Shown here: positions 47,987 through 52,152 of the stretch, in pieces
Position numbering within the stretch: the first letter of the stretch is position 1
Layout: the number at the start of each line of letters is the position of its first letter
Source: Rhizosphaericola mali
GTDB taxonomy: Bacteria > Bacteroidota > Bacteroidia > Chitinophagales > Chitinophagaceae
NCBI RefSeq assembly: GCF_004337365.2
Contig: NZ_CP044016.1
Coordinates: 4,135,507 to 4,199,506, forward strand
Length of the DNA: 64,000 nt
Reading direction: 5' to 3'
The notes under the pieces: model-generated
Told to the model about the DNA's origin: nothing
Seen by the model: the letters and a program-made list of their open reading frames with translations, nothing else
Databases searched by the model: none
Position numbers and translations under genes: made by a program

Positions 47987-48658
47987 ATGTACATGCTTCA
48001 AGCAGAAGGTATTCATAAGTTTTATGGGGAATTGGAAGTTTTAAAAGGAGTAGACCTCACCATTCAAAAAGGAGAGATTGTTTCTATTATAGGTTCTTCT
48101 GGTGCAGGTAAAAGTACCTTGTTACATATTTTAGGATCTTTGGATGCCGCTGATGAAGGTTCCGTTCAGTTAAATGATGTTGTTATTACCCAATTGAAAG
48201 GAAAGAAATTGGCGGACTTTAGGAATAAAAACATTGGTTTCGTTTTCCAATTTCACCATTTGTTACCCGAATTTTCAGCTTTGGAAAATGTTTGTATTCC
48301 AGGTTGGATTGCAGGAAGAAAGAAAAAGGAAGTTGAAGATGATGCCAAAAGTCTTTTGACAAAATTGGGATTGGCAGAAAAGATGGATAACAAACCTTCT
48401 CAATTGAGTGGCGGACAACAACAGAGAGTTGCCGTGGCGAGGGCTTTGATCAATAAACCTGCAATCGTGTTTGCTGACGAACCAACTGGAAATTTGGATA
48501 GTAAAAATGCGAAAGAACTACACAACCTATTCGTTCAATTAAGAAATGAATTTGAACAAACCTTTTTGATCGTAACACATAATGAAGAATTAGCTAGCAT
48601 GAGCAATCGTGTTTTGCATATGAAAGATGGAAGAATTATCAATGAACAGATTAATTAG
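47987..48658 (+). CDS. LolD-like ABC transporter ATPase (lipoprotein release)
   Basis: The 223-residue ATPase has Walker A GSSGAGKST, a Q-loop in FVFQFHHLLPEFSALENV, signature LSGGQQQR and Walker B IVFADEPTGNLD, closest to LolD/MacB ATPases. LolD drives extraction of lipoproteins from the inner membrane with LolC/E, which are not adjacent. Its 3' end overlaps the cobalamin adenosyltransferase gene by 4 bp. Confidence 0.9.
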   Translation: MYMLQAEGIHKFYGELEVLKGVDLTIQKGEIVSIIGSSGAGKSTLLHILGSLDAADEGSVQLNDVVITQLKGKKLADFRNKNIGFVFQFHHLLPEFSALENVCIPGWIAGRKKKEVEDDAKSLLTKLGLAEKMDNKPSQLSGGQQQRVAVARALINKPAIVFADEPTGNLDSKNAKELHNLFVQLRNEFEQTFLIVTHNEELASMSNRVLHMKDGRIINEQIN

Positions 48659-49221
48659 ACATTTGGAGTCCATTTAATTTCTTCGACATTCATTTTCTTA
48701 GCTACAAATCGGCCCAAAACGAATAGATAATCGCTCAATCTATTCAAATAACACAATAGATTTCCCACATTAACAACATTTTCATTTTCAGACAAATGAA
48801 CTAATTCTCTTTCGGCTCGGCGACAAACAGCGCGAGCAATGTGAATTTCGGATACGGTTGGATGACCACCTGGTAATATGAAATGTGTCATTTGGGGTAA
48901 GGTTTCCTCCATCGTATCAATTGCCAATTCTAAGACCTTGATATTATCTTCTGATAATTCTGGAATGGGAGTGTGATTTTTTTTCTTAGGGTCCAGTGTT
49001 ACCCAAGCTCCTATACAAAATATATCATTTTGAATTGATCTTAATAGATTCGATATTTCACTGTATTGTATATTAAGATCAGAGATCATTCCAATATGTG
49101 CATTCAATTCATCCAAGTCTCCACATACTTGAATTCGCTCATTTGACTTCGATACACGGGAGCCTCCGATGAGCCCTGTGGTTCCTTTATCGCCTGTTTT
49201 GGTATAAATTTTAAAAGCCAT
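48655..49221 (-). CDS. Cob(I)alamin adenosyltransferase, PduO type
   Basis: The 188-residue protein starts MAFKIYTKTGDKGTTGLIGGSRVSKSN; 20 extra upstream codons are possible but would place charged residues ahead of the ATP-binding N terminus. DLDELNAHIGM, HFILPGGHPTVSEIHIARAVCRRAERELV and YLNRLSDYLFVLGR are typical of the trimeric PduO/MMAB enzyme that makes adenosylcobalamin from cob(I)alamin and ATP. Confidence 0.93.
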   Translation of the reverse strand: MAFKIYTKTGDKGTTGLIGGSRVSKSNERIQVCGDLDELNAHIGMISDLNIQYSEISNLLRSIQNDIFCIGAWVTLDPKKKNHTPIPELSEDNIKVLELAIDTMEETLPQMTHFILPGGHPTVSEIHIARAVCRRAERELVHLSENENVVNVGNLLCYLNRLSDYLFVLGRFVAKKMNVEEIKWTPNV

Positions 49222-49326
49222 ATTTTTTTTCAAAAATAATTCATTTTTTAAATCATTGATAAATAGTTGTTTATGCGTCATTTAATAGAGAAGTGAAAAT
49301 TATTTTAAAAATAATAAATACAAATG

Positions 49327-49357
49327 TTTGTTAGTTTAAATAAAGCTATTATCTTTG
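49327..49357 (+). promoter_or_regulatory. Full Bacteroidota promoter (TTTG-N19-TATCTTTG)
   Basis: TTTG at 49327-49330, 19 bp, then TATCTTTG at 49350-49357. Both elements are exact. Transcription should start at about 49363, and no ORF follows before the terminator at 49480-49515. Confidence 0.8.
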
Positions 49358-49362
49358 TGTTA

Positions 49363-49515
49363 TCAAAGTAAGAAAACGAGCTTGCTTTGTACGATTGCCT
49401 GCCTCTAACGATTGATTGATTCGATTGCCTCCGGCCTGATTAACCGGAATTGCCTATGAGAATGTGTGTGTAGAATGCGAAGGTCTTCCCTCAGTAAAAA
49501 GGTAAGACCTTTTTC
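49363..49515 (+). ncRNA. Candidate small RNA or attenuated leader of about 150 nt
   Basis: The unit runs from the predicted start site to a Rho-independent terminator. It opens with a 9-bp hairpin (49364-49372 with 49381-49389, one G-U pair), then has three copies of ATTGCCT (49394, 49424, 49449), a small TCCGG/CCGGA hairpin, and the terminator. It does not look like tmRNA, SRP RNA, RNase P RNA or a riboswitch class that I can name. It could be free RNA or the attenuated leader of the AsmA-like gene 106 bp downstream. Confidence 0.6.
49480..49515 (+). terminator. Rho-independent terminator of the candidate RNA
   Basis: AAGGTCTT at 49480-49487 pairs with AAGACCTT at 49504-49511, followed by a T-rich run to about 49519. 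Confidence 0.85.
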
Positions 49516-49620
49516 TTTTGCATAATTTGGTATAAATCATAGCGTTACTACTTACTAAATGAAAAAGATGCTTTAATTTCAGTATTTAATTATTCTAAGT
49601 TCTGATAAAAGATAATAGCC

Positions 49621-52152
49621 ATGACCTCAAGAGCATCTAAAATATGGAAGCGTATTGGTATTATATTCGGTAGTGTTATCGTTTTGATAGTTCTCGTACT
49701 TTCGATTGGTAGCTGGTACATTTCTTCCCATAAAGAGAAAATAAAAAACTTAATTGTGGAAGAAGTAAGAAAGAAGGTACATGGTACTTTTGAGATGGGA
49801 GATTTGAGTGTCAGCATCTGGAGGGATTTTCCACGATTACAAGTCGGTATTACGAATGTTATTTTAAAAGATTCTATTATACAAAAGCCAATTATTCAGA
49901 TAGGACATCTTTATACGAATGTCAATGTGTTAAAGTTATTGTTTGGTAAGGCTAAAATAAATCAACTGAATATTGAAGATGGACAAATACAGCTTTTAAC
50001 GAATAAAGATGGTTACACAAATACATCTATATTTAATAATAATGATACTACAAGTAAAAATGAATCCTCTGATAAGAAAGAAACAGAGCTACCAATAAAT
50101 TCGATTAATTTAAGAAATGTCCAGTTTGTTCTAGATGATCAACATGGCAATAAATTTTATGGAATAAAAATTATTAGACTAAAGGGCGAGTTTACAAAGC
50201 CAGATTCCAATTATGCTATACGTTTAAATATGGATACCTATATACAAGGGATGGGTTTTGTTACAAAAAATGGATTCTTTTTTCGAAAAAAATATTTATC
50301 TGCCAATTGGAAAGAAATGCACTTCAATCCTCGTAATGGAGATTTGACTTTTGCGTCATCACCCGTATTTATTGATCATCATATTTTTAATATTGGAGGT
50401 GGATTTAATTTTAGCGCTGATTCCGCAACATCCAAACTAGATCTGACTGTACAAAGTTCACAGACGACGTTTAAAGATTGTGCAAGTATTTTGGCAGATA
50501 ATATTCAGCATTCTCTTTCCTTATACAAATTAGAAGGTCCCATAGATGTGGAGGCAACATTAAAGGGGTCATTAAAGCAATCAACACCTACTATTCATTT
50601 AAGAGCCTCGGCTCCAAATAATACGATTAAATTACCTTCAGATGTGATCTTGGATAGTGTACGATTTGTGGGTTATTACAATAATCAATTAGATGTAAAA
50701 AAGGAACCTACTGATCCTAATTCAGGTATATCGTTTAAAGGTTTTGGCGCGAGTTGGAATGGCGTTCCTTTGATTGGTGATAAAATACATGTGGTTAATT
50801 TGAGTATTCCTATTATCAATTTAAAAATACATTCGGAAGGAGAATTATCCAATCTTAATAGTCAATTTAACCTAGTAAGTTTAAAATTTTTGGGCGGACA
50901 TGCAAGACTAGATATTGGCTACGATGGGCGCGCAGAATCTGTAAATGATATTATCCAAAATTTTGCCGGAAAATTAGTGGTATCTAACGGCAAAGCAGTA
51001 TATGTTCCTAAAGGATTAAAGTTTGAGGAATGTAATGGTGCAATTATATTTGGAAGCAATGCTTTAACTGTGAACAATCTTACCGCTTCACTAAATGGAA
51101 ATAAAGTTTATGTAAATATAAAGGGGAAAGCAAGCGATTTAAATGCAAAAAATCCAGTTAAGAGCTGGTTAATTTGTGATGTACATGCGCCAACATTAAA
51201 CTTGGCTTACTTTAAAAGTTTATTTGGTTCTACATCCAGCAGTGCAACTTCATCCTCCAATAAATCTAGGCCCAAATCTACCAAAACAAATTCAAGTCAA
51301 TTAGGTAGTGCATCTTTAAATATAGATGATATATTGGAAAAGGGAGATTTCAATTTAAATCTAAGATCAGAAAATATTATTTACAATAATTTCAAAGCGA
51401 CCAATTTGATTAGTAAAATTCGATTTTCCAATAATAGCTGGACGTTAGGACAATTTTCTTTGAATCACGCGGAAGGAAAAATGAATTTGCATGGAACTGT
51501 TATACCAATCTCTGCAACAAGAAATAATGCAGATTTTGTACTAGACTTCAATAAAGTAAATATCCAAAAGCTTTTTTATGGCTTTAATAATTTTGGTATT
51601 GATAATATTTCTTATAAAAATATAAAAGGATTATTTACATCTAATTTAAATCTGAGTACAGTAATCAATAATGATGGTAATATTATTCCTAGAACGACCG
51701 TAGGTTGGATTAATTTTAATCTAAGTAATGGAGAGTTGATCAATTTTCCCCCCTTGTTGTCGATTCAGAAATATGTATTTAAAAATAGAGATTTGAATGA
51801 TGTGAAATTTGCTACAATAACAAATAAGATAAAAGTAGACAAGGGGGATTTTTATATCAATAAAATGGAAATCGCATCCACAGTATTAAGATTATTTGTC
51901 AATGGGATTTACAGTCCGAATGGTAATACGGATCTAAGTATTCAAGTTCCGTTTGCGTCTTTAATAAAAAAGAAGAGTAAACAAGAGTCCTTGGAAAAGA
52001 CAGGTGATCCCGAGAAAGCTGGAGCTAGCGTATATTTAAGAGCCACCAACAAAGATGGTGGCCCGATAGGCGTCAAATTAGATGTTTTTAAAAAATTACG
52101 CAAAGATGAAATTTCAGAAAGAATGGCCAAAGAAGGAATTTTACAAAACTAA
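49621..52152 (+). CDS. AsmA-like protein with large periplasmic domain
   Basis: The 843-residue protein has an N-terminal helix (ASKIWKRIGIIFGSVIVLIVLVLSIG, about 5-30) and a long beta-rich periplasmic region of repeated strands; GTFEMGDLSVSIWRDFPRLQVGITNVILKD is the AsmA N-terminal pattern, and a Ser/Thr/Lys linker lies near residues 540-560. The last ~150 residues (VGWINFNLSNGELINFPPLLSIQKYVFKNR) form the AsmA C-terminal domain. AsmA/TamB-like proteins are bridge-type lipid carriers between membranes. It overlaps purN by 4 bp at its 3' end. Confidence 0.85.
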   Translation: MTSRASKIWKRIGIIFGSVIVLIVLVLSIGSWYISSHKEKIKNLIVEEVRKKVHGTFEMGDLSVSIWRDFPRLQVGITNVILKDSIIQKPIIQIGHLYTNVNVLKLLFGKAKINQLNIEDGQIQLLTNKDGYTNTSIFNNNDTTSKNESSDKKETELPINSINLRNVQFVLDDQHGNKFYGIKIIRLKGEFTKPDSNYAIRLNMDTYIQGMGFVTKNGFFFRKKYLSANWKEMHFNPRNGDLTFASSPVFIDHHIFNIGGGFNFSADSATSKLDLTVQSSQTTFKDCASILADNIQHSLSLYKLEGPIDVEATLKGSLKQSTPTIHLRASAPNNTIKLPSDVILDSVRFVGYYNNQLDVKKEPTDPNSGISFKGFGASWNGVPLIGDKIHVVNLSIPIINLKIHSEGELSNLNSQFNLVSLKFLGGHARLDIGYDGRAESVNDIIQNFAGKLVVSNGKAVYVPKGLKFEECNGAIIFGSNALTVNNLTASLNGNKVYVNIKGKASDLNAKNPVKSWLICDVHAPTLNLAYFKSLFGSTSSSATSSSNKSRPKSTKTNSSQLGSASLNIDDILEKGDFNLNLRSENIIYNNFKATNLISKIRFSNNSWTLGQFSLNHAEGKMNLHGTVIPISATRNNADFVLDFNKVNIQKLFYGFNNFGIDNISYKNIKGLFTSNLNLSTVINNDGNIIPRTTVGWINFNLSNGELINFPPLLSIQKYVFKNRDLNDVKFATITNKIKVDKGDFYINKMEIASTVLRLFVNGIYSPNGNTDLSIQVPFASLIKKKSKQESLEKTGDPEKAGASVYLRATNKDGGPIGVKLDVFKKLRKDEISERMAKEGILQN

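Follow-up and report, generated by a model that had tools for sequence, protein, structure and literature searches.

A predicted small RNA gene, conserved in one congener, upstream of an AsmA-like gene of Rhizosphaericola mali

Introduction

In the genome of Rhizosphaericola mali (Chitinophagaceae), an initial annotation made from the DNA letters described a promoter-to-terminator unit without an open reading frame at positions 49327-49515 of the analysed window (i.e., the whole stretch of DNA considered, with a length of 64,000 nt). The unit lies between a divergent cob(I)alamin adenosyltransferase gene (48655..49281, minus strand; PF01923, TIGR00636) and an AsmA-like protein gene (49621..52152, plus strand; PF05170, E 3.6e-17). 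The question raised by this locus is whether it encodes a functional RNA and, if so, whether this RNA is a free regulator or a leader that attenuates the AsmA-like gene. All the parts first described, namely the promoter, the hairpin, the repeats, the ORF-free stretch and the terminator-like hairpin, are present at the locus.

Results

Promoter and extent of the predicted RNA

The unit starts with a Bacteroidota-type promoter on the plus strand (49327..49357), in which TTTG at 49327-49330 is followed by 19 nt and by TATCTTTG at 49350-49357. As the initial annotation stated, the match is exact, and it is the sole exact copy in the window on both strands, where 30 simulated first-order Markov sequences contained 0.1 copies on average and 1 at most. 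It fits the Bacteroidota housekeeping sigma consensus given in an excerpt of PMC7366714, with TTTG near -33 and TAnnTTTG near -7. Given the looser form TTTG-N19-TANNTTTG is observed twice against 0.8 expected in the window, the promoter match is weak by itself, and its conservation is the better evidence: ATGTTTGTTAGTTT and TTATCTTTGTGTTATCAAAG are kept in the congener, with a spacer of 21.

The predicted small RNA has about 150 nt (49361..49515, plus strand), and is supported by its conservation in the congener and by a fold z of -2.26, with 3 of 200 shuffles equally stable. Judging from the promoter position, its 5' end would fall near 49362-49364. No ORF of at least 40 aa overlaps 49361-49515 on either strand, in line with the claim that the unit holds no credible ORF.

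Hairpins and terminator

A 9-bp hairpin had been placed at the expected start of the RNA, and one is found there (49364..49389, plus strand; arms 49364-49372/49381-49389) in both the MFE and centroid folds and in the two-sequence alignment, the start itself being predicted. Its loop shares AACGAG with the congener RNA, and its stem shows one U-G/U-A variation between the two species and no double change. Within the conserved core, a possible 7-bp hairpin formed by CGATTGA/TCGATTG, G-U pairs included (49409..49427, plus strand), appears in the MFE, centroid and two-sequence consensus folds; its sequence is invariant in the congener, whose own MFE pairs the segment otherwise. It is followed by a CCGG-N9-CCGG hairpin (49431..49447, plus strand), supported by the folds and the alignment and flanked on both sides by ATTGC, with the same stem bases and a different loop in the congener.

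The unit ends with an intrinsic-terminator-like hairpin (49480..49514, plus strand), recovered by the folds, whose arms (49480-49491/49500-49511) are 92% complementary and precede a T run, which agrees with the Rho-independent terminator first described. In the congener, the outer stem is kept, and the inner stem bases are changed with pairing retained. A simple consensus terminator scanner reported nothing in 49200-49800, probably because an inner mismatch interrupts the stem and the scanner's rules permit only loops of 3-8.

When two helices were tested on an alignment fitted to the window structure, 24 of 24 lettered cells were paired, against at most 50% in slid controls; with two sequences only, a one-sided change is seen in one pair and a two-sided change in none. 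This pairing is support for the structure rather than proof of it. The congener RNA's own MFE agrees with the window RNA in the 5' hairpin and the terminator, and its middle is paired otherwise. Conservation of the stems, which the initial annotation expected of a genuine RNA, is seen for the 5' hairpin, the CCGG stem and the terminator, but not throughout the middle of the congener fold.

Conservation in the congener

The congener is the only other sampled genome of the genus, which is represented by two genomes, and is 81% complete. A blastn search found the unit in 2 of 59 relatives, i.e., the window's own genome and the congener (78% identity, E 1.2e-34), where promoter, hairpins, core and terminator stand in the same order. 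The two RNAs are identical in 122 of 158 alignment columns, gaps counted (77%), and their alignment scores 124, where the best of 200 shuffles reaches 13.

The surroundings present a different picture. The spacer between the RNA and the AsmA-like gene, which as cut spans 104 and 213 nt in the two species, reaches an alignment score of 1, no better than shuffled sequences (mean 3.3). The AsmA-like proteins share 49% identity over 836 aligned residues, and at fourfold-type sites (conserved G, A, V, T, P and L codons) 44 of 166 third positions are identical, which is near random. The RNA is hence much better conserved than its surroundings in these two genomes. This contrast is the strongest evidence of a functional unit, and conservation so far above AsmA third positions and the spacer points to a selected RNA gene.

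Repeats and conserved core

The core GATTGCCTGCCTCTAACGATTGATTGATTCGATTGC (49393..49428, plus strand) contains the first two ATTGC copies and has 35 of 36 bases identical in the congener; two copies of CGATTGCCT are spaced 30 nt apart within the RNA, and the block CGATTGATTGATTCGATTGC is unchanged between these two genomes of near-random fourfold-type sites. The initial annotation had reported three ATTGCCT repeats, which are indeed exact in the window at 49394, 49424 and 49449 (the third copy spanning 49449..49455, plus strand). ATTGCCT occurs 18 times in the window against 11.9 expected, a count reached by 4 of 100 shuffles; for three copies inside 62 nt, a rough post hoc calculation puts the expectation at about 0.0002 per window. 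In the congener, the three copies read ATTGCCT, ATTGCAC and ATTGCTT. The two species share ATTGC at three aligned positions, and copies two and three alter outside it; hence, the conserved repeat is ATTGC three times, and the longer ATTGCCT does not persist as a conserved motif.

One copy had also been noted to run into CCTCC, the anti-Shine-Dalgarno core. CCTCC is present at 49428 in the window RNA and absent from the congener RNA, and mimicry of the anti-Shine-Dalgarno sequence was rejected because CCTCC is not conserved.

Taxonomic range

A structured model of the RNA (R3), whose search filters lose weak matches, retrieved 2 of 394 family genomes at E <=0.01, namely the window's own genome and the congener. 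With a sequence-only model (R1) and E <=0.1, matches were obtained in 16 of 244 family genomes, of which the best after the first two has E 0.0024 (genome G218); the window's genome and the congener have one match to the RNA each. Allowing at most 3 mismatches, a 22-mer matched 17 places, spread over 16 of the 244 family genomes. Of these places, 15 fall outside the two genomes of the genus; every one of them has 3 mismatches (the reversed control gave 1 place), and they were taken as chance; the one of them examined, the G218 match, sits in apparent coding sequence by reading. A 19-mer scan of GTDB contigs returned 9 stretches, among which the congener holds the sole true copy by eye, and no match to the RNA was found in viral contigs or in plasmids.

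The initial annotation could match the unit to no known RNA class, and the Rfam 15 families gave no match in the window at gathering score. A lax Rfam scan of the unit gave four sub-threshold matches, led by a ctRNA model at the terminator stem (22.9 bits with a cut-off of 50, E 0.0068). The check proposed at the outset, a covariance model built from relatives together with an Rfam search, recovers the congener, with no match elsewhere among the 394 family genomes under these filters and no Rfam family at cut-off.

6S RNA was considered and rejected: RF00013 was found in 0 of 12 genomes, and RF01685 exceeded its cut-off in 0 of 39, so that both models miss this genome and the searched relatives. 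6S RNA is reported in Bacteroides in an excerpt of PMC7366714, and the 6S RNA of Chitinophagaceae may be too diverged for RF00013 and RF01685. Given the structured model finds 2 of 394 genomes, the AsmA orthologues inspected in nine other genera lack the unit by reading, and neither Rfam nor the 6S models match, the RNA appears confined to one genus as far as seen.

Candidate targets

Searched with the reverse complement of CGATTGCCT, the genome yielded a LysR-type regulator gene (chromosome C1:3465045-3465941; L103:1473-2372) that carries one AGGCAATCG site at +29 and another at +59; their 30-nt spacing equals that of the two CGATTGCCT copies in the RNA. The chance of a same-strand pair at this spacing is about 5e-5, in a post hoc test devised after seeing the match, and 9e-5, likewise post hoc, after correction for the excess of 9-mer repeats at a 30-nt distance in a 464-kb sample. 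Pairing of the RNA core with -50..+100 of this gene reaches -41.6 kcal/mol (the best of 348 sampled starts reaches -33.6), and with -50..+50, which includes the first site only, -36.7 (best of 348 sampled starts, -31.3). A Gumbel fit predicts that the LysR energy would be reached by chance in about 5.5 of 3953 genes, or about 4 for the longer stretch; genome-wide, the modelled energy is not exceptional. In two genera that lack the RNA, LysR relatives pair at -19.7 and -21.2. The gene was not found in the congener, whose genome is 81% complete. The LysR-type mRNA is, on these predictions, a candidate target only.

The LysR gene uses AAG GCA ATC G for each of its two Lys-Ala-Ile triplets, which are separated by 30 nt. 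At the corresponding places, relatives from two other genera encode Asp-Thr-Ile and Lys-Ala-Ala, and one of these relatives has GCAATC elsewhere nearby. The gene falls into no assigned LysR subfamily, all 25 models listed, MetR included, scoring below their cut-offs.

Across gene starts generally, the RNA core pairs scarcely more strongly than its reversed letters, with means of -15.4 and -14.5 and best values of -31.3 and -31.7, respectively. There are 24 AGGCAATCG sites in the window's genome, two of them the RNA itself, and 32 in genome G001, against 10 and 26 for the reversed control; 12 of 15 loci of the window's genome (13 sites), those found on one strand, were examined. The locus pairs L075/L081 and L111/L119, which surround search matches, are seemingly duplicated (near-identical stretches, same ORF start). 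AGGCAGGCAATC with one mismatch has 8 sites in the window's genome and 22 in G001, self included, with controls of 5 and 8, and at <=1 mismatch no non-self site falls 100 nt or less from the start of any of the listed ORFs with at least 100 aa.

The complement of the 19-mer, at 3 mismatches, has 8 non-self sites in the window's genome and none for the reversed control: one just upstream of a start codon (L144), two inside ORFs and five antisense to ORFs. This apparent excess is not firm because permuted 19-mer patterns often equal it, 19 of 40 doing as well at <=4 mismatches and 5 of 40 at <=5 in the 464-kb sample. At L144 (C1:137087-137105, minus strand), 12 bases perfectly complementary to the core lie shortly before the ATG of an ORF that encodes 409 aa with a hydrophobic N-terminus; 6 of 348 sampled starts pair as strongly.

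Discussion

A trans-acting antisense RNA as the favoured reading

We consider it probable that the unit is a stand-alone non-coding RNA gene, whose RNA would act in trans as an antisense sRNA. It has the general features of an intergenic sRNA, i.e., its own promoter, no ORF, an intrinsic terminator and conservation, and the repeated short motifs between hairpins, the protective 5' hairpin and the terminator favour a trans-acting antisense role. Under the proposed mechanism, the housekeeping-type promoter would produce an RNA of about 150 nt that begins at a stabilising or protective 5' hairpin and ends at the intrinsic terminator. Between the hairpins, it would present the short ATTGC-containing segments GAUUGCCUGCCU, CGAUUGC and AUUGCYUAUGA, together with the invariant AACGAUUGAUUGAUUCGAUUGC; these segments would pair with GCAAU-containing stretches near the starts of target mRNAs, lowering their translation or stability. 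Transcription, action in trans and repression are what we infer from this arrangement. Of the two readings in the initial annotation, the free regulatory RNA is the best supported as a prediction, being conserved in one congener and matching no Rfam family at cut-off, although the CCTCC and the three full ATTGCCT copies cited for the unit are not conserved.

A pure trans role leaves the linkage to AsmA in both genomes unexplained. In the other initial reading, the RNA would be a 5' leader of the AsmA-like gene and would usually end at the terminator, until a signal (a ligand, a protein or a ribosome on a mini-ORF) permitted readthrough. We regard this as rather unlikely, yet it keeps some weight because in both genomes an orthologous AsmA gene follows the RNA directly and in the same orientation (47% identity over query residues 3-426, E 2.4e-117), with a differing gene upstream, CorA-like by eye in the congener. 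No exact TTTG-N18-21-TANNTTTG is found between the terminator and AsmA in the window, and a mini-ORF ATGAGAATGTGTGTGTAG (49456-49473) stops 6 nt before the terminator arm. The congener too has a short ATG-to-TAG stretch before its terminator by eye, but the peptides differ (MRMCV and MKIVRV, by eye). If the 3' arm is withheld, upstream RNA offers a pairing partner for a portion of the terminator 5' arm in each species; these alternative partners differ between the species, however, and no shared antiterminator was found. The spacer, as described above, is not conserved in length or sequence.

Furthermore, such a unit is absent upstream of all nine AsmA orthologues (E below 1e-30) examined from other genera, a result that rests on reading about 450 upstream bases of each and on the blastn search. 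A promoter pattern with spacers of 18-20, also applied there, misses even the congener's own promoter (21). Pairing of the RNA core with the AsmA start is unremarkable (231 of 348 sampled starts are as strong), though a leader need not pair. Linkage and co-orientation speak for the attenuating leader, and the lack of a shared antiterminator and of a conserved spacer speaks against it. The sRNA and leader roles could coexist.

CsrB-type RNAs sequester an RNA-binding protein via repeated motifs, and the repeated (G)AUUG(C) motifs could likewise bind several copies of such a protein. GATTG occurs four times and ATTGC three times in the window RNA (five and three times in the congener RNA), and the invariant block is longer than a seed usually requires; the repeat number is nevertheless low, and some repeats may be base-paired. 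We give this explanation a small probability.

A genus-specific dual function is less probable still: the terminated AsmA leader would be freed as a trans-acting sRNA whose two CGATTGCCT copies clamp the two AGGCAATCG sites in the coding region of the LysR mRNA, and, if true, envelope (AsmA) expression would be coupled to a LysR-type regulator. It is very improbable that the conserved stretch represents a DNA element or an overlooked tiny ORF instead of a functional RNA, given conservation covers the promoter, hairpins with changed loops and the terminator in proper order, and the aligned ATG at 49456 opens merely 5-6 codons in either species.

Comparison with known systems

Considering the favoured trans-acting sRNA, the predicted RNA would represent a new family of a kind, the intergenic sRNA, that is already known. 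No description of it was found in titles and abstract starts, among the matches listed, of the open-licence literature on small RNAs of Bacteroidetes and Chitinophagaceae, on R. mali and on RbpB/FopS. The Bacteroidota regulatory RNAs met in this literature come from gut Bacteroides, with none for Chitinophagaceae among the matches listed. A strongly conserved predicted RNA gene with defined boundaries, in a cultured soil species, is a tractable case with one named candidate target; if it is merely one more orphan sRNA, its interest is modest.

The RNA resembles 6S RNA (RF00013) and 6S-Flavo (RF01685) in its length range and in having its own promoter. In 6S RNA, the 5' and 3' ends are joined in one closing stem, whereas here they form separate hairpins, and neither model matches. 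Repeated-seed sRNAs, such as LhrC of Listeria, carry several copies of one short motif per RNA, as is the case here, yet motif, phylum and structure differ.

GibS and FopS are also intergenic sRNAs of Bacteroidota. According to an excerpt of PMC11697453, GibS of Bacteroides engages one target with two seeds, and FopS of Bacteroides thetaiotaomicron combines canonical sigma-ABfr promoters, a single-stranded seed and a Rho-independent terminator. FopS is described there as a multicopy RNA of about 65-70 nt with 14 members, whereas the present RNA has about 150 nt, one match per genome, a hairpin first and no Rfam match; as far as the descriptions in that excerpt go (PMC11697453), these features set it apart from FopS.
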